This document shows positions 10,030-35,154 of a stretch of DNA of 64,000 bases, piece by piece. Position numbers and translations under genes: made by a program. How positions within the stretch are numbered: position 1 is the stretch's first letter; each line of letters begins with the position of its first letter. This stretch comes from Actinotalea sp. JY-7876 (GTDB taxonomy: Bacteria; Actinomycetota; Actinomycetes; Actinomycetales; Cellulomonadaceae). Location of the stretch: positions 682,001 through 746,000 of the forward strand of contig NZ_CP059493.1 of assembly GCF_014042015.1 (NCBI RefSeq), in the 5' to 3' direction. The notes under the pieces are model-generated. The model was not told where the DNA came from. It was given only the letters and a program-made list of their open reading frames with translations, and made no database searches.

Positions 10030-10102
10030 GCGCCTGTAGCTCAGGGGATAGAGCACCGCTCTCCTAAAGCGGGTGTCGGCAGTTCGAATCTGCCCAGGCG
10101 CA
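10030..10102 (+). tRNA. tRNA-Arg, anticodon CCT
   Basis: A complete 73-nt cloverleaf. The acceptor stem pairs GCGCCTG with CAGGCGC and an A discriminator follows. The D-arm contains TAGCTCAGGGGATAGAGC. The anticodon stem CCGCT/AGCGG encloses the loop CTCCTAA (anticodon CCT). The T-arm contains GTTCGAATC. CCA is not encoded. The 3' half (from 10061) is repeated at 33506, which marks this gene as the integration site of the following island. The gene remains intact after integration. Confidence 0.95.
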
Positions 10103-10103
10103 C
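10061..10103 (+). repeat. attL-type site: 3' half of tRNA-Arg
   Basis: From the anticodon loop to just past the acceptor stem, this segment is shared with 33506-33548 in direct orientation. The first 24 bases are identical and three single-base differences follow. tRNA 3' halves that include the anticodon or T-loop are the standard crossover target of tyrosine integrases. Confidence 0.85.
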
Positions 10104-13752: not shown

Positions 13753-14681
13753 TCAACGGTGACCTCTGCCACTATCGACTCCGTGGTCGGACTTGATACG
13801 CGTCGCCTCCATCCACCGCGACCGCGCGCGGAAGTTGGTGTTCGTCCACACGCCCCCGCTCCGGCTTGGGAACAGGTACGAGCCCGGCTCCGTCGCAGCG
13901 ACTCGCGTCCTCGCGTATTCGTCAAGGGCCGCAGGCACCGGCACGGTCCGCGTCTGGTGCGTCTTCGTCGGCCCGAACACCGCCCCGCTGGTCCGCTTGG
14001 ACTGCGTCGCCGCCCGGTGCACCCGGACGCCGAGACCGTGCGGGGTCTGCACGACGTCGTCGACCCGCAGCGCCGCCATCTCCGAGAACCGGCACCCCGT
14101 CGTCCCGAGGAACAGCACTACCGGCTGGCACAGCGGCGGCACCGCCATGACCAGCCGGCCGAGCTGCTCGGGCCGGAGCCAGTGCGGCTCCCGCTTGATG
14201 CCCCCGCGCGGCAGCGCCACCATCCGCGCGACGTTGACGCTCAGTCGCCGGTCGCGGATCGCGTAGTCGAAGACCAGCCGCATCATCGACAGGGCCCGAC
14301 GCCGTGTCGCCGTCGCCAGCCCACGCGCCGTCAGGGCCGACATCACTCGCTCGACGTCGGCCGCCGAGATCCCGGAAATCGGGTACGCCCCGATCTCCGG
14401 GATCACGTACTTGTCCAGCAGGAACCGCGTGGTCTCCTGCTGCGCACCGCCAGGTGACCACGCGAGGCTTGCCACTCCTCGGCCAGCGCCGCGAACGTCA
14501 TCCGCCCGCGCGCCGGGTCGATCCACGAGCCGGCGTCCAGCTTCGCGAGCTGGTCCGCCTCCCAGCGCTTCGCATCGACCCGGCGTCCGAACGACCGCTG
14601 CGCGATGACCCGGCCCTCGAAGAACACCTTCGCGCGCCAGGTCACGGTCCCCGTGGGGTGCGCCCGCCTGGTGACGGACAT
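13753..14681 (-). pseudogene. Tyrosine integrase, frameshifted and C-terminally truncated
   Basis: The N-terminal part starts at the ATG at 14681, overlapping the excisionase stop. It reads as an arm-binding domain (TVTWRAKVFFEGRVIAQRSF, then MTFAALAEEWQASR). Near 14440-14455 the frame shifts by one base and continues as a core-binding and catalytic domain (TRFLLDKYVIPEIGAYPISGI, LGTTGCRFSEMAALRVDD with the first catalytic Arg). After NTNFRARSRW the protein runs out, so the HxxR box, the second His and the tyrosine nucleophile are missing. Both defects are inactivating. An intact integrase of this type should be near 370-400 residues. Confidence 0.8.
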
Positions 14682-14934: not shown

Positions 14935-17826
14935 TTACAGCCCGAGCACCGGTCCATCGGGAACCGGTGGCGGGACGCTGGTCAAGCGATGCGGCGTCGG
15001 CTGTGGAGGCACGGCACTCCACGCTTGCTGTGGACGCGCGGGCGGCACGATGGGTGCGGGCCGACCGGGGTGATAAGAAGCCCAGGTCTCGGTAGCGCTG
15101 GGCTCGGCGTGACTGGCCGCGAGGATCTGCTCGAGCACCTCGCGGCCCGACGACGGCGCCTGGCCGGGCAGGCACTCCGGGTCGGGTTGGTCGACGACGA
15201 CGTAGGCGCGGTTCGTGTGGCGGCCGCGGCTCATCCCGACGTAGAGGTCCTCGCGGCCCATACCCGGGGCGGCGATCGTGTGGGTCTCATCGACGGTCAT
15301 GCCCTGGGTGCGGGCGATGGTCGTGGCATAGCCGAGCTCGACGTGCTCGGCCACGTACTCGGCGGGAAGCCGGACGCTTGGGGCATCGGCGTGGTTGGCG
15401 GGCCGGACACGGAGTGACCCGTCGGGCAGGACAGCGGTGACGTCCCAGAGGGCGCCGTTGCGCACGAACCCGTCGGCAGTGGTTAGGCGGCGGTGGTTGC
15501 GTCGGGTGACGATCCGGTCGCCGACGCCGGCAGCCAGACCGTCGTGCAGGCCCACCCCGGCGGGTGCGACGTCGCCGGTGGTGATGCGGTCGGCGCGGAT
15601 GCGGGCGTTGAGCTCGTGGACGGTGCGGTTGTCGACCGCCTGCAGCGCCGCGACCCTGCCCTGCTCGCTCGCCGTGGTCACGGCGTCGATGGCGGCGTCG
15701 AGCATCGCATCGTGCCCGCCAGAGGCGATGGCGCCGTGGGCCTCGTAGGCGTCGAGGGCCGCGGGATGGGCACGGCGCAGCTCGAGGCTGGCGCGGGCCT
15801 CCCAGGGGTGGGTAAAACGCCAGAGGCTCGTGAGCTCGACGGTGGGCCCGCGTCGGGCGAGCATGCCGAAGGCCCCGCCGGCGTCGACCGACCCGCGCTG
15901 CCGGTGGTCCCCGACGAGGAGAATCTTCGCCGTCGCTGCGCGAGCCTGCTCGACGATGGCGGCGAGGGTGCGGGTGTCGGCGAGGGAGGCCTCGTCGACG
16001 ATGACGAGCTGGCCGGGGGAGAACCGCCACTGGTCCTGCTCGATCCGCAGCCGCCACTGCTCCTCGCGCGCCACCCGCATCTCGCGGAAGTCGCCGTTCG
16101 CTTCCCGCTCGACGGTGTCGGCGTAGCGGAGGGCGCGCGCCGTGCCGCCGTCGCCGGTGGACTCATGCAGCCACTTCGCCGTCGTCTCGCACGGGACGCC
16201 GAGTGACTCTCCGAGTGCTCGTGCCGCGGTGGCCGACGGCGCCAGGCCGACGACAGGCCCGAGGCCGTGCCCCCAGAAGGCCGTCACCGCGGCGAGGGCG
16301 GTCGTCTTGCCGGAGCCCGCCGGGCCGACCAGCACGTCGAGGAGGCGGCTGGAGGTGATGACCGCCTCGGCGGCTGCGCGCTGGTCGGGTGCGAGCTCGC
16401 CGAGGTGGTGCTCGGTGCGCAGCGGCAGCTGTCCGAGCATGGCGCGGGCCCGGTGGGGGAAGCCGTCGGTCTCGGCGGCATCGATGAGGGCTTTCTCGGC
16501 GTCGAGCAGCTCGGTCGAGGTGAACAGGGACTCGCCGACCCGGCGCGTGGTCGGGTCCCGGTTGTCATCCAGGTGCACGCACGCCGCCGCGGCGTCGGCG
16601 GTGATCGTGTTGAGGAGGGCGCGCCGCTCTAGGGGTGAGGCCATCCGCAGGAGCTTGGAGGCTCGGACGGCGGCGGCGCCGAGGTTCCACGTCGTCCAGA
16701 CCGACCGCTTGGTCGAGACGTCGTCGAGGACCTGGGCGACCATCGCGGCCCGGACCTCTGGGCCGACGTCGTGCGCGTGGAGCGGCCGGCCGTAGGCGCC
16801 GGCAAGGGCTCGTGCGGCGAGGTCGTGCGGCTCGAGGCCGGTGAGCGCGCGGGCGCGGTTCGCCCACTCGGCGAGAAGCTCCGCGAGCGGCCGGACGGTC
16901 TTCGGCGGCCGCGTCGCGCGAGTCAGGTGCTTCCGGGCGCGGGTGGTCTCCACGCGCGTCGGTGCCCGGCCGTGCGTGGCCTCGAACTCGACGAGCCACT
17001 CCTGCTCGGCGCAGTGGATCTGCTCTGCGCGGGCGGAGAAGTGCGCCAGGAGGTCGTCGCCAACCCCGCTCAGCTCGAAGGCGGGGTTGCGGCGCGAGCC
17101 GCGGTCACGCATCGACCATTCCACCGGGAGGCGCCGCGCGACCTCGTCGGCCAGCAGTGCGTCGTAGAGCTCGGACACGGTGACGACGGCGGCGTGGACG
17201 GTCCGCCCGTCGACGCTGCGCCAGGCCCCGTCGGGACCCTGCACCTTGTTGGCGATGACGACGTGGGTGTGCAGGTTCGGGTCACCGGCCCGGGTGTCCC
17301 AGTGATCGAAGGCCGCGGCGACCATCCCGCGGGTTCGGATCTGATGACGGCCGCCGTCACCGATGCGCGTGCGGATGACGCGCTGCTCGACGAACTCGAG
17401 CGATGACGCCAGCGCTGCCCGGTGCGCGTCGTAGACGAGGACGCGGGTCGCGTCATCGGCCAGCGCCCACAGCACCGAGACGGATTTCGGGGCGGTGAAG
17501 GTCAGGTCGTAGCCGACGACCGCGTGACGATTCCCGTCATCGAACGAGCGGAAGGGCCGGCCGAGCGCGACATTGGTCAACGGGTCGCCGCCGTCCTGGA
17601 ACACGGCCGTCATCGCCGACTCGGTCACTACATCGCCCGGGCGGAGCCGCCGGCTCGCGTCACCGAGCCCGGCGAGGCCCTCGCCGTACCAGCGGCCCGC
17701 CGGGCTCCCCGTCTGCTCGTAGTACGCCGTCAGCGACGCCCCCGCGTCGAGGCCGGCGTCGCCCGCGGCCACGTGCCGGGTCAGGTAGGCGTACCCGTCC
17801 CCGGCCGTGAGCTTGTGCATCGACAT
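14935..17826 (-). CDS. MobF-family relaxase with helicase domain (TraA/TrwC-like)
   Basis: About 963 residues. The N-terminal TrwC relaxase domain (residues about 1-300) opens with MHKLTAGDGYAYLTRHVA and carries the metal-binding histidines in DPNLHTHVVIAN. Paired tyrosines near residue 35 (TAYYEQTG) and GRWYG supply the usual nicking tyrosine candidates. A RecD/TraI-like helicase domain follows with the Walker A VGPAGSGKTTAL and VIVDEASLAD as Walker B. It would nick and unwind the element at its oriT for transfer. The start is uncertain: GTG 17838, GTG 17829 and ATG 17826 are in frame after GGGGAGG. No coupling protein or type IV secretion genes are present, so it could only be mobilised by another element. 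Confidence 0.85.
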   Translation of the reverse strand: MSMHKLTAGDGYAYLTRHVAAGDAGLDAGASLTAYYEQTGSPAGRWYGEGLAGLGDASRRLRPGDVVTESAMTAVFQDGGDPLTNVALGRPFRSFDDGNRHAVVGYDLTFTAPKSVSVLWALADDATRVLVYDAHRAALASSLEFVEQRVIRTRIGDGGRHQIRTRGMVAAAFDHWDTRAGDPNLHTHVVIANKVQGPDGAWRSVDGRTVHAAVVTVSELYDALLADEVARRLPVEWSMRDRGSRRNPAFELSGVGDDLLAHFSARAEQIHCAEQEWLVEFEATHGRAPTRVETTRARKHLTRATRPPKTVRPLAELLAEWANRARALTGLEPHDLAARALAGAYGRPLHAHDVGPEVRAAMVAQVLDDVSTKRSVWTTWNLGAAAVRASKLLRMASPLERRALLNTITADAAAACVHLDDNRDPTTRRVGESLFTSTELLDAEKALIDAAETDGFPHRARAMLGQLPLRTEHHLGELAPDQRAAAEAVITSSRLLDVLVGPAGSGKTTALAAVTAFWGHGLGPVVGLAPSATAARALGESLGVPCETTAKWLHESTGDGGTARALRYADTVEREANGDFREMRVAREEQWRLRIEQDQWRFSPGQLVIVDEASLADTRTLAAIVEQARAATAKILLVGDHRQRGSVDAGGAFGMLARRGPTVELTSLWRFTHPWEARASLELRRAHPAALDAYEAHGAIASGGHDAMLDAAIDAVTTASEQGRVAALQAVDNRTVHELNARIRADRITTGDVAPAGVGLHDGLAAGVGDRIVTRRNHRRLTTADGFVRNGALWDVTAVLPDGSLRVRPANHADAPSVRLPAEYVAEHVELGYATTIARTQGMTVDETHTIAAPGMGREDLYVGMSRGRHTNRAYVVVDQPDPECLPGQAPSSGREVLEQILAASHAEPSATETWASYHPGRPAPIVPPARPQQAWSAVPPQPTPHRLTSVPPPVPDGPVLGL

Positions 17827-18066
17827 CACCCGCACCACCTCCCCTCGCGACGCCGTCGCTATCTGCAGGTGTGCGGCAGCGGGGGAGAAGATGCGCAGCT
17901 GCCGCCGTGCCGGCGTTCACAGGGAGGTGTGCCAATAGCCCTACCAAGCGAGCCATCCACCGGGAGCGAGCGGCCGCTGAGGGTCTCCAGGTCTAGGCCG
18001 TCCGGGGGAACAAGGCTGCGACACGGCTGATCTCTTCCTACCCTTTTCCCGGGAGGGAGTTCTCGG

Positions 18067-23638: not shown

Positions 23639-24700
23639 TCAGGCGAGCTGCCGCGCGGCTTCCAGGAGCCGCGCACCTATGGCCGCACCCAGCGGGATGG
23701 GAACGGCGTTGCCGATCTGGCGGGCTATCGAGGTCTTGGAGCCCACCCATTTGTAATCCCGCGGAAAGCCTTGGAGTACCGCCGCCTCGTAGTGGGTGAT
23801 GGCTCGATTCTCCTCGGGGTGCAGGTACCGACCCTTCTCGGGCTTGAAGAACTCAGTGCGTATGGTGACGGACGGCCTGTCCCACCGGAGTCGACCCATG
23901 ACGTCACCGGACCCGCTGGTGTGCCTTCGCCAGCAAGGCGGCAGCAGCTCGTCCGGGAGATCGAATCGGTTACCACCCGGAGGAATCGAACGGAAGCGGG
24001 CCCTCGAAGTGGGTGAGTAGTCACGTCCGAGGTGCAGCTCGTGAGTACGGAAAACTCCGGGCAGAACCATACCCTTGAAGGTGTGCGTGCGCTCCGGCAG
24101 CTCCAGCGAGTTCCAGGCGCCGTCGAGTCCACGGAACGCCTCGCGCACCGTGCGGTGCGCATCGGCATGCGTCGGTTCGGGCCACCCAGGGAACGGCAGG
24201 TCGCGATGGTGACCGATGAGCACCGCACGCTTCCTCGCCTGGAAGGCACCGTGGTCAGCGGCGTTCAGGACGCGGGCCTGGAAGGCGTAGTCGGCGAGCT
24301 CGGCACCCGGTTCCACGGCGTCGAGGAACTGCTGGTACTGCGCCGACTTCATGAAGGCCGCGACGTTCTCCACCACAAAATACCGGGGTCTCGCCCGGAC
24401 GATCGTCCGGGCGTACTCACGCCATAGGGTGTTGCGCTCGTCCTCGGCGTGCTGCTTGCCGAGCGTCGAGAAGCCCTGGCAGGGCGGTCCACCCACGATG
24501 ACGTCGACCGAGGGCACGTCCCGCGTTCGCAGCCACTCCTGGATTGGCCCGACGAATACGTCGGCCCCCGGGTGGTTCTGCTGATAGGTGGCCGCAGCCG
24601 CGACGTCCATCTCGACGGCCTCCACCGTCGAGTAGCCCCCCTGCAACCCCAATCCCGCACTGAGCCCGCCTGCGCCGGCGAAGAGATCGAGGACCGTCAT
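23639..24700 (-). CDS. DNA (cytosine-5) methyltransferase
   Basis: 353 residues with the ordered C5-methylase motifs: I (VLDLFAGAGGLSAGLG), IV with the catalytic Cys74 (VGGPPCQGFSTLG), VI (FVVENV), VIII (FQARKRAVLIG), IX and X (QIGNAVPIPLGAAIG). The short target-recognition region lies between VIII and IX. The frame is open far upstream, but ATG 24700 places motif I at residue 3, as is normal; ATG 24757 is the other choice. It diverges from vsr. It would protect host DNA at the site cut by the associated restriction proteins, or mark DNA for the ATPase and Z1 genes. The recognition sequence is unknown. Confidence 0.9.
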   Translation of the reverse strand: MTVLDLFAGAGGLSAGLGLQGGYSTVEAVEMDVAAAATYQQNHPGADVFVGPIQEWLRTRDVPSVDVIVGGPPCQGFSTLGKQHAEDERNTLWREYARTIVRARPRYFVVENVAAFMKSAQYQQFLDAVEPGAELADYAFQARVLNAADHGAFQARKRAVLIGHHRDLPFPGWPEPTHADAHRTVREAFRGLDGAWNSLELPERTHTFKGMVLPGVFRTHELHLGRDYSPTSRARFRSIPPGGNRFDLPDELLPPCWRRHTSGSGDVMGRLRWDRPSVTIRTEFFKPEKGRYLHPEENRAITHYEAAVLQGFPRDYKWVGSKTSIARQIGNAVPIPLGAAIGARLLEAARQLA

Positions 24701-24755
24701 CGCCGACGAGCCGCTTCCGGGCACGTCAGTGCTGCGCGATCCTTGGGGGGTGACC

Positions 24756-25268
24756 ATGGGGCCCACGCTAGCCGGCAGCGGCGACACAACCGACGAGGCG
24801 CGCGGGATGCGCCCGAGCCCGGTGCTGGCGTCCCACATCCCGATCCCCGCTTCCAGGGCCGTCTCGGACCGGATGTCCCGGCAGCGCCGGAGGGACACGG
24901 GACCGGAACTGCTGCTGCGCCGGGCTCTCCATCGCCGCGGCCTGCGCTTCCGTGTCGACCACGCCCTCCCCGGCCTTCCCAGGCGCCGCGCCGACGTCCT
25001 GTTCACCCGTGCCCGGATCGTGGTCTTCGTCGACGGCTGCTTCTGGCATGGCTGCCCGGAGCACGTGACGCGTCCTGCGAGCAACGCAGCGTGGTGGGAG
25101 GCGAAGCTCGCGACGAACGTTCAGCGCGACCGGGACACCGACGCACATATGAGGTCCATCGGATGGCTTGTCCTCCGGTTCTGGGAACACGCGGACATGG
25201 AGCAGGCGGCGGACCGCGTCGCTCACGCCTGGACGAATGCTCACGAACCGCGGGCCAGGAGCCGATGA
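24756..25268 (+). CDS. vsr: Vsr-type T:G mismatch endonuclease
   Basis: 170 residues. The core from about residue 35 matches Vsr: SRQRRRDTGPELLLRRALHR, RVDHALPGLPRRRADVLF with the metal-binding Asp, FVDGCFWHGCPEH with zinc/active-site residues, then GWLVLRFWEH. It nicks beside T:G mismatches made when 5-methylcytosine deaminates, and so repairs the sites of the adjacent methylase. The ATG at 24756 overlaps the alternative methylase start in a CCATGG on the other strand. A shorter start (ATG 24807 or the Met before SRQRRRD) is possible. In MORC-type restriction cassettes vsr-like genes are a known companion. Confidence 0.9.
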   Translation: MGPTLAGSGDTTDEARGMRPSPVLASHIPIPASRAVSDRMSRQRRRDTGPELLLRRALHRRGLRFRVDHALPGLPRRRADVLFTRARIVVFVDGCFWHGCPEHVTRPASNAAWWEAKLATNVQRDRDTDAHMRSIGWLVLRFWEHADMEQAADRVAHAWTNAHEPRARSR

Positions 25269-25349
25269 GACTCGGAGTGTCGGTGACGCCTTCTACGGTG
25301 GCTACCATCAAGAAATCCACAGGCCGTGAGGCCTCGGAAGGACTCCACA

Positions 25350-25606
25350 GTGACGCGGACCCGCAAGCTCATCGACGTCTCGCGGCCCCTTGAGGACACT
25401 AACCACGAGTCCGCCGGGGAGAAGTCGGTCCGGCACGGCCGCCCGTCCACCCCGCACCTGTGGTGGGCTCGCCGACCGTTGGCCGCGGCTCGGGCCGTGC
25501 GATTCGCCCCACTCATCGACGACCCGTCTTCGAACCCCGACCGGTTCCCCATTGAGGAGGATCGGAAGGCCGAACGGGAGCGACTGCACAACATCATCCG
25601 CCGTCT
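25350..25606 (+). pseudogene. 5' remnant of an anti-phage DUF1156-type methylase gene
   Basis: From GTG 25350 the frame reads TRKLIDVSRPLEDTNHESAG, then EKSVRHGRPSTPHLWWARRP, LAAARAVRFAPLIDD and KAERERLHNIIRRL. This is the conserved beginning of DUF1156 proteins, which are large Zn-ribbon-containing adenine methylases found in anti-phage loci. Homology stops near 25606 and the frame runs on for about 30 unrelated residues. The remaining 800 or more residues are absent. It is the scar of a different defence system replaced by the ATPase/Z1 cassette that starts 94 bases later. Confidence 0.7.
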
Positions 25607-25699
25607 GGATTCCCCGGGACCATCCAGCGGGCCGTCCGCGAGAACGCCCGGACACTCCGGTCCGACGCCAGCCGGTTTGACGACGTGGAGTACTCACCG

Positions 25700-27238
25700 A
25701 TGACGGACGTCCAGGCGGACACGCTGGCCAGCGAGGTTGTCGGCCGACTGATCCTCACTCCGGATCCGGCCTTCGTGAAGAGCCTCGGCACCCACCACAC
25801 TCTCGAGTCGGCCATGGCGGACCTCGTCGACAACAGCATCGACGCCCAGGCCACGACGGTCACGATCCGGTTCATCACCAGGAGCGGTCACCTGGCCGGG
25901 ATCTTGGTCATCGATGACGGAGACGGCATGGACGCCGACATCGCGGACCGTGCGATGCGGCTCGGAGGTCAGCGTGAGTACACGGCTGGTGAGCTCGGGC
26001 ACTTCGGCGTGGGGCTCAAGGCAGCTGCCCTCGGGGTCGCGAACGTCTTGACGGTGTGGTCGCGCCGGTACGGAGCCAGCCCGGTCGGCCGGCGACTCAC
26101 ACGCGTCGACATGCAACGCGACTACTCGTGCGACGTGCTGAGCACCGAGGCGGCCGAGCGGTCGCTTCGGCACGGACTCGACGGTGCCGAACGCGGCACG
26201 ATCATCGCGCTCACCGAGCTCAAGGCCGGCATCCATGGAGCCTCGCCAGCCGAGGCGGCGATCTGGCTTTCCCACGCTCAGCAGCGTGTTCGTCACCACC
26301 TCGGCCTCGTATACCACCGCCTCCTCACCGCCAATCGCGTGGTGGTGCAGACGGTGGAGGTCGACGAACACGGCAATCAGGGAGTGCCCACGCCGGTCCG
26401 ACCTGTCGATCCCTTCGCCTACCCCGTCACCGGACGGCCCGGCTTCCCCAAGCAGCTGCACGCCACCGCGTCGGGGAAGGACGTCACCGTCACGTGCCAC
26501 ATCTGGCCAGCGCGCTACGAGAACAACACAGAGTTCAGGCTGCAGCAGAAGTCCGCCGATGAGACTCAGGGGTTCTACGTCTATCGCGCGGACCGTCTCC
26601 TCCAGCTCGGCGGGTGGAACAACGTGGCGAACGCCGGACCGCTCCGCAAGCTCGCGCGGGTCGGCGTCGACGCCGACGGTCTCGACGGACTGGTGCAACT
26701 CAACCCCGAGAAGAACGGCACACAGTTCAGCACGGTGCTGTCCCACGCGCTGGCGCGCGCGACCTCCAGCGCTGGAGACGACGCCGTGTCGTTCGCGGAC
26801 TTCCTGACCGCTGCCGAGGATGTCGTGGTTCAGTCGAAGAAGCGGACTCACAAGCGCAAGCCCGTGGTGCGGCCGGACCGCGGATTCGCCGAGGGCGTTC
26901 GGCGAGCGATCGGAGAGGAACTCGACTTCCATGCGGACGAGGACGGCGTGGAGGTCCGCTGGAAGCGGCTCCCACCCGGAACGTTCTTCGAAATCGACCG
27001 GCCTGCACGGACGCTGTGGCTGAACCTGGTGTACAGGAACCTCTACTCCCCCGGCCAGAAAAGCCTGAACGACGCACCCCTCGTCAAGGCTCTGATGTTC
27101 CTACTAGCTCAGGGCCACTTCACGGGCATGCAATACAGCTCCGCGAAGCGCGACGAGGCGGCGGTGTGGCAGGCCGTTCTCGGAGCAGCCGCCGAGGAGG
27201 AGAAGATGCGACGGAACCGAGGAGAGGGACCACGATGA
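25700..27238 (+). CDS. GHKL ATPase, MORC/MutL-like, of a restriction-type defence cassette
   Basis: 512 residues from ATG 25700, which has GGAG nine bases upstream (GTG 25685 is an alternative). The N-terminal GHKL fold is clear: N-box LESAMADLVDNSIDAQA (Glu36, Asn45), G1 box VIDDGDGMD, G2 box GHFGVGLKAAALG. The following S5-like domain and a long C-terminal part (with KKRTHKRKP at about residue 380) resemble the prokaryotic MORC-like ATPases predicted in restriction-modification operons. Such ATPases are expected to clamp or remodel DNA in an ATP-dependent cycle. It overlaps the PD-(D/E)XK gene by ATGA and so is co-translated with it. Confidence 0.85.
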   Translation: MTDVQADTLASEVVGRLILTPDPAFVKSLGTHHTLESAMADLVDNSIDAQATTVTIRFITRSGHLAGILVIDDGDGMDADIADRAMRLGGQREYTAGELGHFGVGLKAAALGVANVLTVWSRRYGASPVGRRLTRVDMQRDYSCDVLSTEAAERSLRHGLDGAERGTIIALTELKAGIHGASPAEAAIWLSHAQQRVRHHLGLVYHRLLTANRVVVQTVEVDEHGNQGVPTPVRPVDPFAYPVTGRPGFPKQLHATASGKDVTVTCHIWPARYENNTEFRLQQKSADETQGFYVYRADRLLQLGGWNNVANAGPLRKLARVGVDADGLDGLVQLNPEKNGTQFSTVLSHALARATSSAGDDAVSFADFLTAAEDVVVQSKKRTHKRKPVVRPDRGFAEGVRRAIGEELDFHADEDGVEVRWKRLPPGTFFEIDRPARTLWLNLVYRNLYSPGQKSLNDAPLVKALMFLLAQGHFTGMQYSSAKRDEAAVWQAVLGAAAEEEKMRRNRGEGPR

Positions 27239-28239
27239 CGTCCGACATGGGGCGATTCGTGCCCTCCGAGCGCCACCCGGACCTGCCCATGCTCGACGGG
27301 TACTGGGCCGACGGTCACCCCGCAAGGCTCCCGATCCTCGGTGCGCCCGAGTGCTTCATCGACCTGGATCCACCGCATCGTGAGATCAAGCTCAGCGTCC
27401 CGGCCGACGGCAAGGAGCCCGACCTGGCGAAGTTCCGAAACATCGACCTCGCCACCTACACCGACGACGGTGTCGACTGGTGGGAGATCCGTGTGCTCGC
27501 CGAGGACTCGTTGCACGAGGCGTACTCCCTCCTGACCCGCATCGCCGATCTCGTCCAGTTGAACCGGCAGTCCGTCGGGGTCGCGGCGTACCAGGCGCTC
27601 GAGGCGTACCGGGCGCTGCTGGCCGCGCGCGGCGCGATGAGCGAGGAGCAGCAGATCGGGCTCTACGGCGAGCTGCTGGCACTGGAGCACCTCTTGCGCC
27701 ACGCCAGCCCGGGCGTCGCGGTGCCGGCGTGGATGGGGCCGATCAACGAGGAGCACGACATCGCTCTCGCGGACGTCCACTTCGAGGTCAAGACCACCAA
27801 GGGTGAGCACCGCCGGCACGTGATCAGCGGGACGCAACAGTTGCAGCCTCTACGCGGCGTCCCGTTGTGGCTGCTCTCCCTGCAGGTGACCCCGACGACG
27901 CCCGACGCCGGGCGGAGCCTGGTCGATCTGGTGGCCGACGTCCGTCAGCTCGCTGGCGGAGGCCAGCCGAGGTTCGACGAGCTGCTGCGCGGGATTGGCT
28001 GGCGTGACTCCGATGCCGACCTATACGCCTCCCACCTCACCCTTCGGAGCAACCCGCGCGCCTACCTCGTCGACGCGGCATTCCCGGCGCTGACGGACGA
28101 TCGCCTCGGCGTTGCGGCGCCTCAGGCGGAACTGATCAGTGACGTGAGGTACCGGGTCGACGTGACCCAGTTGGACTACGGCGTCCCTCCGGCGCCGATG
28201 GACGGATTCGTGGAGCACCCTGAGGAGTCGACCGCATGA
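27235..28239 (+). CDS. PD-(D/E)XK-motif protein (DUF4420-like)
   Basis: 334 residues. The central region has the nuclease-type signature: a helix EEQQIGLYGELLALEHLL, then GPINEEHDIALADVHFEVKT (shortened) giving Asp175 and Glu184-x-Lys186, followed by a conserved Gln-rich helix region (SGTQQLQPL). This is the layout of DUF4420, a putative PD-(D/E)XK family often placed between MORC-like ATPase and Z1 genes. It is probably the DNA-cutting subunit. It overlaps both neighbours by four bases. Nuclease activity is predicted from residues, not shown. Confidence 0.8.
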   Translation: MTSDMGRFVPSERHPDLPMLDGYWADGHPARLPILGAPECFIDLDPPHREIKLSVPADGKEPDLAKFRNIDLATYTDDGVDWWEIRVLAEDSLHEAYSLLTRIADLVQLNRQSVGVAAYQALEAYRALLAARGAMSEEQQIGLYGELLALEHLLRHASPGVAVPAWMGPINEEHDIALADVHFEVKTTKGEHRRHVISGTQQLQPLRGVPLWLLSLQVTPTTPDAGRSLVDLVADVRQLAGGGQPRFDELLRGIGWRDSDADLYASHLTLRSNPRAYLVDAAFPALTDDRLGVAAPQAELISDVRYRVDVTQLDYGVPPAPMDGFVEHPEESTA

Positions 28240-31226
28240 CTGCACCCGCCTGGCAGCATGACCTGACGATGCTGCTCCACGCCGACGCTGATGCTGCGCC
28301 GCGGCCTCTCGTCTCAACGGTGAACGTGCTCATGGGCGGCGAAGGCCTCACCGAGGACGAGCTCGCTGCTCACCTCGAAGCTGCCCCCTTGAAGGACCCC
28401 GTGGTTCACCGCCTCCACCGGGCACTCCTGGCGTGGGACTCCGCCACCGAGGCACCGTGGGCGGCGCTCAACGGTGAGTCTGCACCGCCTCCCCATACCC
28501 GCCCCCGCCGACAGCGGGCATACTCCCGGCTCGGCATCTCGGACGAACTGGCGGCAGCGCTCGACGTCAAGTGCCCCGTGGTTGAGAAGCGCGAGGTCGT
28601 GATCTCCAAGGAGTTCGAGCCCTGGTACGAGGAAGCCAAGCACGAGCGTCAGAGCTTCTACTGGGCGCACTACGAGGACTACCTCCGCGAGAAGGGATGG
28701 GGCGCTGACGTCATCAAGTCACTCGACGCCGCCTCCGACGACGTCGTCCGTCGCCTGTCCGATCCCACTAGGCCTGAGGCGAAGAAGACTCGCGGGCTCG
28801 TGATCGGCTACGTCCAGAGCGGCAAGACGGCGAACTTCACCGGCGTCATCGCCAAGGCCGTCGACTCCGGATATCGCCTCGTGATCGTCCTTACAGGCAC
28901 CGTCGAGATGCTGCGCGCCCAGACGCAGCGTCGCCTGGACAAGGAGCTCGTCGGTCACGAGAACCTCGTCCACGGGCTCGACACCACGAGTGACACCTGG
29001 CACAAGGAGTTCGACTACGCCGGTGACCCGGAGTGGCGCGACGGCGCGTCGTTCGTGCGACACCCCGGCATCGAGACCGCCGACGGAGTGCCGCGGATCA
29101 TCCGCGCGACGACGCTCGGTGCTGACTACAAGCGCCTCAAGCAGGAACTCACCAAGCTGCGTTTCCCCAGCCGGCCGAAGAAGTCTGCGCCTCTGAACCA
29201 TCCCGAGAACCTTGCGGCTGCGGATGCGTACCTGGCGGTCGTGAAGAAGAACTCCCCGACTCTCAAGAAGCTCATCACCGACCTCAAGGCAGTAGGAGCG
29301 AAAACACTGGCCGAGCTCCCCATCCTGATCATCGACGACGAGTCCGATCAGGCGTCGCTAGACACGACGAGCCCCAAGGTGAAAGCAGTGGCCGCCACGG
29401 AGGCCGAGCGCAAGCGGACGGCGATCAACAAGGCGATCTCCGAGATTCTCGGCCTCGCGCCGCGCGCGCAGTACGTCGGCTACACCGCGACGCCGTTCGC
29501 CAATGTTTTCGTCGATCCGACGGACGAGCAGGACATCTTCCCATCCGACTTCCTCATCACCCTCCACCGTCCGGACGGCTACATGGGTGTGGCGGATTTC
29601 CACGACATCGAGCGCGACTGGAGCTCAGAGACGCGCGATCTGACCACGTCCAACCGCATGGCGTTCGTTCGAGACCTGGAGCCGGACGTCCATGCCGCCG
29701 ATCTGGACGCCGAACTCCTCGATGCCATGGACGCCTTTGTCCTGTCGGGTGCGATCAAGCTCTACCGCACTGAGCACGGTACGAGCACCGGCAAGCACCA
29801 CACGATGCTGGTGCACGAGTCCGTCAGGAAGTCCGAGCACCGCGAGACGGCGGAGCGTGTTCGGGATGTGTGGTCCGCGCACCCGGCGACGTCGCCGGAG
29901 GGCATCCGACGTCTCGAGGCCCTGTGGGACGCCGACTACCGCGAGGTCTGCGACGCGCGCAAGGACGGTCCCATCCCCGAGTCGTTCGCCGCCATCAAGC
30001 CGTACATCGGGGCGGCGTACGCCCGGATGACCTCGGACGGCGATCCCGTCATCGTCGTCAACTCCGATGCCGAGCTGCAAGCCAACGCCAAGCGTCTCAA
30101 CTTCGATGCCGAGCCGGTTTGGCGGATTCTCGTCGGCGGCACGAAGCTCAGCCGCGGCTTCACGGTCGAGGGCCTGACCGTGTCCTACTACCGCCGCGCG
30201 GCCGGGCAGGGTGACACCCTGATGCAGGCCGGACGCTGGTTCGGCTACCGCGGGGGCTACCGGGATCTGGTCCGCCTGTTCATCCCCGATGACCTCTACC
30301 AGGCGTTCGAGGCTGTGCTCCGCGACGAGGAGGCCCTACGGCTCGAGCTGGCGCAGTACGAGGGATTCGACGAGTCCGGGAGGCCGCTCCTGACGCCGCA
30401 GGCGGTGCCGCCCCTAATCCGTCAGCATCTGCCAGCAGTCAAGCTGACCGCGCGAAACAAGATGTGGAACGCCCGGCTCATCGAGCAGGGCGTCGGCGGC
30501 CGTATCAGGGACCTTTACATGGTGCCCTCCCGCGATGACGGAGACACCAAGGAGCACAACGTCGGGACGGTCGCTCGGCTCCTTTCACACACCACCGGCC
30601 CTGTGAGGGTCAGTGACGGCAGGAACCTGTTCGATGCCCGGATCGGTCTCGTCGACAACTCAGCGGTCCTCGACCTCCTGGACCGGCGCACGGGTCTGCG
30701 CTGGAACAGCGCCGTGTCGGAGCAGGTACGGCCGCAGGTTCGATTCTTCGAGAACGTGGCGCGCGATGGTCGGGTCGAGGGTTGGGCCGTGATGTGGCCG
30801 CAACTGGGCGAGGGGGGCGTGACTAAGCTGGATGGAGTTGCGGGAAGCGCCCGGCTCGTGGAGCGCGCCCGACGGCGGGGGCGCCACGACTTTTCCGGAA
30901 GTGACATCAAGCATCGTCGTCCCGCGGAGGCGTTGGCCGCGGACGGTCCGAGAGCGGAGGCGGCCTTCCAGGCGCTGGCAGAAGAGCGCAACGTCGAGCG
31001 CCTGGGCGTGGTCCTCGTCTACCTCGCCTGGGATCCGGGTGAGGCGGACGCACAGCGGCCCACCGCCGACGCACCTGCGGACTCGAGGGACATCACGGTG
31101 CTCGTTTCTATGGTGGTTCCTCAGGACGCAGCACCAGGCGGGCGCGCACTCGTGTGGGAGCGGGTTCAGGACGACGATCTGCACCGCGATCTGGCGGCGG
31201 TGGATATTCCGCAGGTGGCACGCTAG
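28236..31226 (+). CDS. Z1-domain helicase-like ATPase
   Basis: 996 residues. A superfamily-2-like motor is readable. Walker A is GYVQSGKTANF (Lys197), Walker B is LPILIIDDESDQAS (Asp367-Asp368-Glu369), and then VGYTATPFANVFVDP. The second lobe with GGTKLSRGFTVEGLTVSYY and LMQAGRWFGYR forms the Z1 hallmark. Z1 proteins accompany MORC-like ATPases and cytosine methylases in predicted restriction systems and probably translocate or melt DNA for the nuclease subunit. The first 140 residues and the last 250 are less conserved and may contact partners. Its TAG overlaps the stop of the opposing DGQHR gene in CTAG. Confidence 0.9.
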   Translation: MTAPAWQHDLTMLLHADADAAPRPLVSTVNVLMGGEGLTEDELAAHLEAAPLKDPVVHRLHRALLAWDSATEAPWAALNGESAPPPHTRPRRQRAYSRLGISDELAAALDVKCPVVEKREVVISKEFEPWYEEAKHERQSFYWAHYEDYLREKGWGADVIKSLDAASDDVVRRLSDPTRPEAKKTRGLVIGYVQSGKTANFTGVIAKAVDSGYRLVIVLTGTVEMLRAQTQRRLDKELVGHENLVHGLDTTSDTWHKEFDYAGDPEWRDGASFVRHPGIETADGVPRIIRATTLGADYKRLKQELTKLRFPSRPKKSAPLNHPENLAAADAYLAVVKKNSPTLKKLITDLKAVGAKTLAELPILIIDDESDQASLDTTSPKVKAVAATEAERKRTAINKAISEILGLAPRAQYVGYTATPFANVFVDPTDEQDIFPSDFLITLHRPDGYMGVADFHDIERDWSSETRDLTTSNRMAFVRDLEPDVHAADLDAELLDAMDAFVLSGAIKLYRTEHGTSTGKHHTMLVHESVRKSEHRETAERVRDVWSAHPATSPEGIRRLEALWDADYREVCDARKDGPIPESFAAIKPYIGAAYARMTSDGDPVIVVNSDAELQANAKRLNFDAEPVWRILVGGTKLSRGFTVEGLTVSYYRRAAGQGDTLMQAGRWFGYRGGYRDLVRLFIPDDLYQAFEAVLRDEEALRLELAQYEGFDESGRPLLTPQAVPPLIRQHLPAVKLTARNKMWNARLIEQGVGGRIRDLYMVPSRDDGDTKEHNVGTVARLLSHTTGPVRVSDGRNLFDARIGLVDNSAVLDLLDRRTGLRWNSAVSEQVRPQVRFFENVARDGRVEGWAVMWPQLGEGGVTKLDGVAGSARLVERARRRGRHDFSGSDIKHRRPAEALAADGPRAEAAFQALAEERNVERLGVVLVYLAWDPGEADAQRPTADAPADSRDITVLVSMVVPQDAAPGGRALVWERVQDDDLHRDLAAVDIPQVAR

Positions 31227-32464
31227 CGGTCGCGTGCCACCGGGACTCCTGCCTGCGCCCAGGTGGCAAGCGTCATCGTCATGCCCTTGAGGTCCTGTGC
31301 CCTCGAGGACGGTGCACGGCTGCCGGTGCCCGGAAAGTACCCGGTGGCGAGCCAACGGCCGTCGATCGGGAAGCCCCACGACCCGGCGAGCTGACGGAGC
31401 ATGCGACGGAAGGCCGCTTCCCCGGCATCGTCGACGCGGGGACGCAGTTCGTCGATCCCGTCGACAGCCACCATGCGGAAGGCGCCAGCGAGACACCGCA
31501 GGATGGTGGCGGACGCGATGAGGCTTCGGGCGCGTAGTGCTGCCGCGCTCTCGGCGCCTGACGCCACCGGCGCCAGCCCGGGGACCTCGTCGAGGAGCAC
31601 GTCGAGGAACCGCAGCGTCACATCCATCACGCCTTCCGGAGCAAGCAGGGCCTCACGCTTCTGCGTCGCCCGGGACTCGAACCCGATCGACGCCGCCCGG
31701 ACGACATCGACGAGGGTCTTCGCCGAGAGGAGGTTCTCGCTCGCCCCGGCCATCCGGTCCTTCTCGAAATCCACGATCCCGTCGACCAGCGGGTGCTTCA
31801 CGGCGAGCTCGGCGGCGACCCGGTTCACCAGGTCACGTTGATCGAAAGCCGCGACTTGGGACTTCGTGATCCCCTTGGCATTGGTCGCGATGTCTGAGAA
31901 GAACTGTCTGTGTTCCTCGATCCCGACCCCTTCAAAGATCTCCAACGTCACACACTCCGTCTGGAGGCGCTCCGACAGGCGAGTCCAGCGATCGAGACCG
32001 CTCTCGGCACTCCGCCCGGCACCGGTGTCGCCTAGGAGATGCGCGTTCTCCAGTGCCCGGCGACTGGTTCTTAGACCTGCCGCGATTTGCTCGGCCGCGA
32101 TGTGCCATCCCAGGATGCGGTGCTGACCGTCGAGGATCTCGAGCGACGTCTTGGAGTCATCGGGGAACGTCAGCATGCCGCTCGAAACCGGCGGCACGGA
32201 CGTCTCCTGTTGGAACCTGTCATCCAACCGCGTCTCGGTATCGAGTAGCAGCGGCGGCGTCGCCCAGCGCTCATTGTGCTGCCAGTACCGCGAGAAACCT
32301 TCGGCATGGGCAAGGTCGACGCGACGGTTGCCCGGGAACTTGTGGGCGGGATCCGGCTCCGGCAAGAGCTCGGCGATGGCCTGCAGTGGCATGGCAACCA
32401 CGAACACCGCGATTCCCCCGCGGTTGTAGCGGTGCGCCGGGAAGGTGTGGACTCTCTGCGCCAA
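31223..32464 (-). CDS. DGQHR-domain protein (DndB-like)
   Basis: 413 residues, read from a TTG at 32464 that has GGAG six bases before it; an in-frame TGA lies just upstream. The signature LEILDGQHRILGW is at about residues 105-117, with FFSDIATNAKGITKSQVAAFD (shortened) further on, as in DndB/DGQHR proteins. DndB itself regulates phosphorothioation genes, but no dndA or dndCDE is here, so this is a stand-alone relative, probably a regulator or nucleic-acid sensor for the cassette. It is convergent with the Z1 gene and overlaps it by four bases. Confidence 0.8.
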   Translation of the reverse strand: MAQRVHTFPAHRYNRGGIAVFVVAMPLQAIAELLPEPDPAHKFPGNRRVDLAHAEGFSRYWQHNERWATPPLLLDTETRLDDRFQQETSVPPVSSGMLTFPDDSKTSLEILDGQHRILGWHIAAEQIAAGLRTSRRALENAHLLGDTGAGRSAESGLDRWTRLSERLQTECVTLEIFEGVGIEEHRQFFSDIATNAKGITKSQVAAFDQRDLVNRVAAELAVKHPLVDGIVDFEKDRMAGASENLLSAKTLVDVVRAASIGFESRATQKREALLAPEGVMDVTLRFLDVLLDEVPGLAPVASGAESAAALRARSLIASATILRCLAGAFRMVAVDGIDELRPRVDDAGEAAFRRMLRQLAGSWGFPIDGRWLATGYFPGTGSRAPSSRAQDLKGMTMTLATWAQAGVPVARDR

Positions 32465-32582
32465 CTGTCACTCCGATGTCTACGTGCTGTGCTCTTGATG
32501 TCGGCAGCACGACGCAGCATCTTGACGGTGTTCACCCGCTCTATGCGCGGCCGACACGCGGGACAGCCGGCAAGCTCACGCC

Positions 32583-33050
32583 ATGTACGACTGGATCTTC
32601 TTCGACCACGCGGCGGACGGCCCTCCCGCGCCGGTTACCGACCTGGCGCATGATCTTCGTAGCCGGTTACCTTCCCTCGCCACGACCGAGACACCGACCG
32701 GCGGTCTGCACCGCCTGGATCTTCTCAGCGCAGTCGGACCCGTCGCGCGCGCCCACTCGCTCGGCATCCCGGATCGCGAGACGTTCGCGGCGACCGAGGT
32801 CGATCTCGTTGCGGGCCAGACCGGCGTCGCCGTGAGTGTGCAAACTGGCCGTGCGCGGACCAACAATGCTGCGCTGCTCGCGGCCTTGGCCGCTGCCTCG
32901 ATGCCGAACATCCGGTGGCTGATCCTGCTCGTTCCCGAGCGTTACAAGGGCAGCACCACGGGCAGGCCCGTCAGGGACGACCTGGCCCGACTGGCTCGCA
33001 GCACAGGAGTGCACCTGGAACTCGATGGCGTACTTCTCCTGACGTTCTGA
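32583..33050 (+). CDS. Small protein resembling a restriction-endonuclease fold
   Basis: 155 residues. The middle reads FAATEVDLVAGQTGVAVSVQ then TGRARTNNAALLAALAAASM and IRWLILLVPERYKG. This looks like the nuclease-fold proteins with an E-x-D strand, a strand ending in (V)E(V)Q-TG and a VP..YK strand. Here the second acidic position is Ser (VSVQ), which could mean loss of catalysis. The gene lies beside the DGQHR gene on the opposite strand and is the last intact gene of the island. It could be the restriction enzyme matched to the methylase, or an inactive relative. The family is not certain. Confidence 0.5.
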   Translation: MYDWIFFDHAADGPPAPVTDLAHDLRSRLPSLATTETPTGGLHRLDLLSAVGPVARAHSLGIPDRETFAATEVDLVAGQTGVAVSVQTGRARTNNAALLAALAAASMPNIRWLILLVPERYKGSTTGRPVRDDLARLARSTGVHLELDGVLLLTF

Positions 33051-33126: not shown

Positions 33127-33420
33127 TCAGTCGGTCGTGGCCGCTGGTGGTCGGCGGAGGTCGCCGGTCTTGAGCCGGTTGAGTCGGTAGGAGTCGCCGT
33201 TAAGGGCGATGACGTCGGCGTGGTGGACGTGGCGGTCGATCATCTCGGCGACGGTGTCATCGCCGAAAGCCTCGCCCCACCGGCCTAACGGCTTGTTCAA
33301 GGTGACGATCAGCGATGCGGGTTCGTAACGGGATGAGACGAGTTGGAAGAACAGGTTCGCAGCCTGGGGCTCGAAGGGGATGTGGCCGACCTCATCGATC
33401 ACCAGCAATGAATAACGGCC
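33127..33420 (-). pseudogene. IS21-type IstB helper ATPase, C-terminal remnant
   Basis: About 97 residues: YSLLVIDEVGHIPFEPQAAN, LFFQLVSSRYE, IVTLNKPLGRWGEAFGDD and MIDRHVHHADVIALNGDSYR. This is the C-terminal half of IstB with the Walker B region. The N-terminal half with Walker A is missing and the upstream sequence is unrelated. It lies just inside the right att copy. Confidence 0.85.
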
Positions 33421-33505
33421 AGGCGGCGCCCGGAACGGTGTCACCACACGGACTGCCCGCGCGAATTTACGGCGTTCGGAGCACTGTCTACAGCCCAAGG
33501 TTGAA

Positions 33506-33548
33506 CTCCTAAAGCGGGTGTCGGCAGTTTGAATCTGCGCACGCGCAC
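33506..33548 (+). repeat. attR-type site: displaced copy of the tRNA-Arg 3' half
   Basis: Forty of 43 bases match 10061-10103. The copy starts within the anticodon loop (CTCCTAAAGCGGGTGTCGG) and ends with the acceptor-stem strand, where the changes (TGCGCACGCG for TGCCCAGGCG) would spoil pairing. It cannot encode a tRNA alone, having no 5' half. It marks the right edge of the island. Confidence 0.85.
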
Positions 33549-33897
33549 CGGGTGTGTGTTTGTGCAGGTCACAAACATATCGGCACCGCAGTTGCGCAGG
33601 TCATGTGCCTGATTCGCCGCTCTTTGGTCAGCGCGTCGCCTCAGGCGCGGACGGCCTGTCAAGAACGTGGACGGGCGCCTGCGGGCACCTTCACCGCCCG
33701 CCGTGCACCTCGCTTCATTGGACGTGGAGGCGGTGTGTCGGTCTAGACAATGTGAAAGACGCTCCACCGTCGGCGTAGGACGCTCGTCGTCCGCGCTTCC
33801 AACACCACGGCCCAGGGGAAGCGGCAAGGCGACGCTCGTCACATCCGACCACGACGTAAGTCGGCATGGGCAAGTCCGAACGTGACCGCTTCGGCCT
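33549..33897. other. Non-coding stretch resembling the left att arm
   Basis: No gene supported in about 350 bases. The first 100 bases share several blocks in the same order with the sequence right of the tRNA: GCAGGTCA, GCACCGC/ACACCGC, GATTCGCCG/GATTTGCCG and TTGGTCAGCGCGT (33625 and 10176). This suggests that a related element's arm, not virgin chromosome, follows this att copy. Confidence 0.45.
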
Positions 33898-35154
33898 CTA
33901 CTCAGGCTCCGCGGCCGCTCCGCGCTGACGGCGTGCCCGCTCCGCGATCCCGTTGAAGAACTTGCCGGTGGCCTCGCTCGCGCGCACCACTCCGTCCGCC
34001 CCGCTACCGAGGGCCTTGTCCTTCACCGTCTGTGCCTTGCTGAGGGTCGCGTCGCGGGTGTCGACGACTGCTGCCAACCAGCGCCGCGCGTCCGCCGCCT
34101 GCCGAGTGGACTCGATCCCGACGACCGCCTGGAAGTCCACGACCGCGGTCACGACCCTGTTGCCGGACCGGACGACGGCGGGGGACTCGAACGGGTTGAG
34201 GAGCACCTTGCCGTTGGCCCAGCGGGCTGCATCGTTCATGCGGTCGATCAGGCGGGCGGTCGTCCGGGCGATGACGTCAATGCGGTTCTGGCGAGCGGCC
34301 CCGAGCCCGAGGCGGTGCCGGTCGAGCTCCTCGGGTGACCCGTCCTGCACGCGGTCGAGCTCGAGCACGCCGAGGCTTTCCTGCAGTTGGAAGCAGCGAG
34401 CCACCATGGCCAGCCACTCGTGGACCTTCGCCTCAGCCTCATTCGTCGCCTTGATGAGGTCACCCATGTCCGTCTTGCGCTCGAGCTTCTCGGCGAGGGC
34501 GTCGAGCTGGCGCAGGGCGTAGGCCTGGGTCCGTGCGATCGTCGCGGCGCCGGCCTGGACCTTGGACCACGTCACCTCCGAGACGCGCCCGACCTGATCG
34601 CGGACCGTCATGGCCTCCTCGACCATGAGGTCGACGCCGACCATGTCGGCGACGACCGCGTCCTTCTGTGCGCGCAGGATGTCGTCGACCTTCTCGTCGA
34701 TCTGCGCCAGGTACTCCTTGATCTCATCGATCGACTGCTGCATCTGCTGCTGAGCCATGAACGTGCCGATGCTCGCCAGTGCGGCGGGGTTCGTGAATGT
34801 CGCCACGGCCTGACCGGGAGCCCCGGAGATCTGGATCCACGACTTGATGTCGCCTCGCGGCCCGATGATCGCGTGGCTGATTCCCTTCATGTCCGTCGGC
34901 ATCAGCCCACCGAGCTCCTTGACCTTGCGAGCGGACGCCTCTGTCATCTTCAGCCATCGACCGGACTCCGCCGCGATGGCGCCGCCGGCCTGGAGCGTGG
35001 CCCCCGCGGTGCCGGCGCTCCTGCGCAGGGCCTGCGGGACGAGGTCTCGGGAGGCCGCCAGCCCCTGGGAGGTCAGGAAGCGCTCGACCGCGCTCGACTC
35101 ACCCACGACCGCGAGCCCAGCACCGTCGCTGATCAGCTCGACCTCGTCGCCCAT
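33898..35154 (-). CDS. Unknown protein, helical, widespread type in actinobacteria
   Basis: 418 residues, no family name assigned. The N-terminus (EVELISDGAGLAVVGESSAVERFL) is a small domain. The middle is long and helical with QQQMQQSIDEIKEYLAQIDE, KVDDILRAQKDAVVADM, and probable coiled-coil character at about residues 130-270. A glycine- and alanine-rich stretch at residues 45-60 and 110-130 could lie against a membrane. There are no catalytic motifs. It is the first gene outside the island, on the minus strand, and ends without an obvious terminator. Confidence 0.65.
   Translation of the reverse strand: MGDEVELISDGAGLAVVGESSAVERFLTSQGLAASRDLVPQALRRSAGTAGATLQAGGAIAAESGRWLKMTEASARKVKELGGLMPTDMKGISHAIIGPRGDIKSWIQISGAPGQAVATFTNPAALASIGTFMAQQQMQQSIDEIKEYLAQIDEKVDDILRAQKDAVVADMVGVDLMVEEAMTVRDQVGRVSEVTWSKVQAGAATIARTQAYALRQLDALAEKLERKTDMGDLIKATNEAEAKVHEWLAMVARCFQLQESLGVLELDRVQDGSPEELDRHRLGLGAARQNRIDVIARTTARLIDRMNDAARWANGKVLLNPFESPAVVRSGNRVVTAVVDFQAVVGIESTRQAADARRWLAAVVDTRDATLSKAQTVKDKALGSGADGVVRASEATGKFFNGIAERARRQRGAAAEPE

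Follow-up and report, generated by a model that had tools for sequence, protein, structure and literature searches.

The MORC chromatin proteins of eukaryotes have prokaryotic relatives, the MORC ATPases, for which a role in restriction systems has been predicted since 2008. BREX-related or Hma systems combine a DUF499 ATPase, a DUF1156 N6-methylase and a Snf2 helicase (PMC12839542). Here we describe a gene cassette in a 64,000-nucleotide stretch of Actinotalea sp. JY-7876 (contig NZ_CP059493.1, positions 682,001 to 746,000; hereafter the window), which we predict to be a multi-protein DNA-cutting defense system that lost two ancestral genes and kept a scar of them. A sequence-only reading had recognized seven genes at this site; that observation is confirmed, and its interpretation stands in part.

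The core is a trio of forward-strand genes. The first (25700..27238) encodes a MORC-type GHKL ATPase similar to MzaB (PF13589, 1.4e-22), with the MORC motif GFYVYRADRLL at residue 296 (counted in the open reading frame, ORF, from 25685). The second (27235..28239), overlapping the ATPase gene by 4 bases, encodes a DUF4420 PD-(D/E)XK nuclease-like protein similar to MzaD (PF14390, 3.6e-34). The third (28236..31226) encodes a PF10593 protein (2.1e-54) with a helicase motif, carrying a Walker A at 191 and DTLMQAGRWFG at 660. Both the MORC and the PF10593 patterns were found in all 17 rows compared, and the residues of the nuclease-like protein whose D...ExK signature the sequence-only reading had noted survive in relatives (E148, D177, E186 and K188 in 15/15 rows). 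The trio also keeps the company which that reading had proposed: of 17 loci, spread over many actinobacterial families, 13 have dcm and 14 have vsr. In the window, the C5 cytosine methylase gene dcm (23639..24703, reverse strand) is intact, with an ATG start at about 24703 (PF00145, 1.5e-56; GGPPCQGFS, ENV, QARKR), and diverges from a gene for a Vsr-type endonuclease (24729..25268, forward strand; TIGR00632, 3.4e-31, above cut-off) whose start probably lies some codons within the ORF. A second C5 methylase gene with an adjoining vsr lies elsewhere in the host genome, outside the window (G000:C1:286923-288062; L033, L035). At a Jiangella locus (L006, 1619-3296), the methylase is followed by ORFs for a GHKL ATPase and a Hypoth_ymh HEPN protein, possibly two halves of one paraMORC-HEPN protein.

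Between vsr and the trio lies the scar (25326..25703, forward strand), where what is left of a DUF1156 (HmaB-like) methylase gene runs into the 3' end of a gene for a DUF499 (HmaC-like) ATPase (PF06634, 2e-23). Its 5' side matches L010, L013 and L019 and its 3' side L003 in blastn; judged from these matches, the junction is a deletion between the DUF1156 5' remnant and the DUF499 3' tail. Omega is 1.22 (0.65-2.74) for the scar and 0.14-0.30 for the trio, the DGQHR gene and the small-protein gene. The cassette genes other than the scar are open, with the examined motifs intact. An ORF of 1663 aa at L093 (10480-15471, G953) overlaps with a DUF1156-like start, perhaps as an in-frame fusion with another gene.

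The cassette ends with a DGQHR gene (31223..32464, reverse strand) and, divergent from it, a gene for a 155-aa protein (32583..33050, forward strand), separated by 118 nucleotides in the window and by 118 and 119 in two relatives. The 155-aa protein is apparently undescribed, and the libraries searched hold no model for its family. As to its fold, a PDB sequence search returned weak, unrelated-looking matches only (best E 0.0037), and AlphaFold2, given two near-identical rows as input, reached a mean pLDDT of 46.8. The proposal that it is nuclease-like finds no support in the catalytic residues: the PD-(D/E)XK pattern of D plus E-x-K/E/Q on the core strands is absent among the 11 clear members, 9 of which keep the D while the Glu position is Ser in 10 and Ala in 1; three distant relatives do have D and E-V-E. 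Relatives of this protein recur beside several other kinds of defense genes. We give somewhat less than even chances to the idea that, paired with the DGQHR protein, it works as an accessory module in its own right, such as a DndB-kind regulator pair or a toxin-antitoxin-like guard, acting on whichever modification system adjoins.

We infer that these particular genes serve in phage defense. Several observations weigh against our main reading, held with moderate confidence, of a restriction system in which the cassette methylase protects the host. In all 17 MORC proteins, the residue presumed to be the catalytic base in the GHKL N-box is Asp and not Glu, and hydrolysis may therefore be slow or absent. 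The DUF4420 gene was not found in 2 of the 17 loci (L011, L014). C. hominis has a broken cassette methylase and a degraded vsr together with an intact trio, and a restriction enzyme guarded solely by that methylase would not be expected to survive such a loss. The C-terminal part of the degraded vsr still has an omega of 0.35 (0.16-0.90), which points to recent or incomplete decay. A NaeI-linked methylase about 21 kb away, 46% identical to that of the window, may substitute for the broken one. The window methylase shares a C-terminal specificity-like block with the NaeI-linked methylases of L007, L008, L014 and L031, yet the block also occurs in methylases at loci without NaeI, and the NaeI-type site GCCGGC is not depleted in a 160 kb sample of the host genome (409 sites against 416 expected). 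Alternatively, the trio might not be gated by the methylase and might sense invaders by another cue, with dcm-vsr as a separate modification and repair platform, frequently accompanied by NaeI, that only shares the ride. We find this rather unlikely, as the association of dcm and vsr with the trio across so many families exceeds accidental travel. That the copy in the window is in decay and its remaining genes are disappearing, its defense lost with DUF1156 and DUF499, is improbable: the two deleted genes, the approximately 50 nucleotides lost beyond the C. hominis deletion and the state of dcm and vsr in that genome would fit, but the remaining genes are open with the examined motifs intact, omega is 0.14-0.30 in the trio, DGQHR and small-protein genes against 1.22 in the scar, and at L004, L005, L012 and L021 the stretches read show trio genes without any match to DUF1156.

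The predicted system lies in an integrative element of about 23.5 kb, bounded by 43-nt direct repeats of the 3' part of a tRNA-Arg(CCT) gene (ARAGORN, 10030-10103): the left attachment site at 10061..10103 and the right one, 93% identical, at 33506..33548, both on the forward strand. This island is mobile, and its host is an actinobacterium of the Actinotalea/Cellulomonas group. Within it, one ORF (13753-14526) resembles a tyrosine recombinase and another (14935-17838) a relaxase/helicase, both named by sequence reading, without a family search. ORFs at 33127-33842 resemble the remnant of an insertion-sequence helper gene and overlap the right repeat; a distant relative is encoded at L013 too. 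Immediately beyond the repeat lies a 418-aa gene (33898-35154), a relative of which (54%) sits straight 3' of the small-protein gene in G918 (L080).

The locus is a compact and intact set that nature has already trimmed. Among near and far versions of the trio, some have the second methylase/ATPase layer, others lack it, and one has a broken methylase, which makes it directly testable which parts are essential. If the 155-aa family is a shared accessory of unrelated systems, it would indicate a step that modification-based forms of immunity have in common.

How does the cassette compare with known systems? CglI/NgoAVII, in the available text, have a PLD-type nuclease with a B3 domain and no described MORC component; no PLD-type R protein with a B3 Pfam match occurs among the scanned cassette ORFs. 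The DGQHR protein has the domain match of DndB-type proteins but scores 39.8 against an equivalog cut-off of 328, and no other Dnd genes were identified among those ORFs. Putative defence system Type I (PMC9523054, Miller et al. 2022) has three additional genes, which the available text leaves unnamed. Relatives of the window locus hold HmaB- and HmaC-like genes (3e-303 and 6.7e-260 at L010), whereas the cassette retains only the DUF1156 5' remnant and the DUF499 3' tail, and the HmaA profile gives only partial matches in the host genome. The B, C and D components of MzaABCDE (PADLOC/NCBIfam models) are recognizable as relatives of the window proteins, but the scores fall far below the NCBIfam cut-offs (MzaB 100.7/850, MzaC 279.6/1500, MzaD 63.3/420); MzaE (AIPR, PF10592) has 0 matches in the host genome, and the window has a methylase and Vsr instead. 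The available text on predicted MORC-type restriction systems makes no mention of DUF1156 and DUF499 genes paired between vsr and MORC, of NaeI swapping or of a DGQHR/155-aa pair. These systems share with the window a GHKL ATPase with GhXhhpXXRhl, a helicase with DThhQXuRhFG, an E-D-ExK nuclease, DCM and Vsr; by its core the cassette joins this predicted group as a new member, and its composite ancestry, repeated loss, effector swapping and 155-aa family mark it as a variant that deserves testing.
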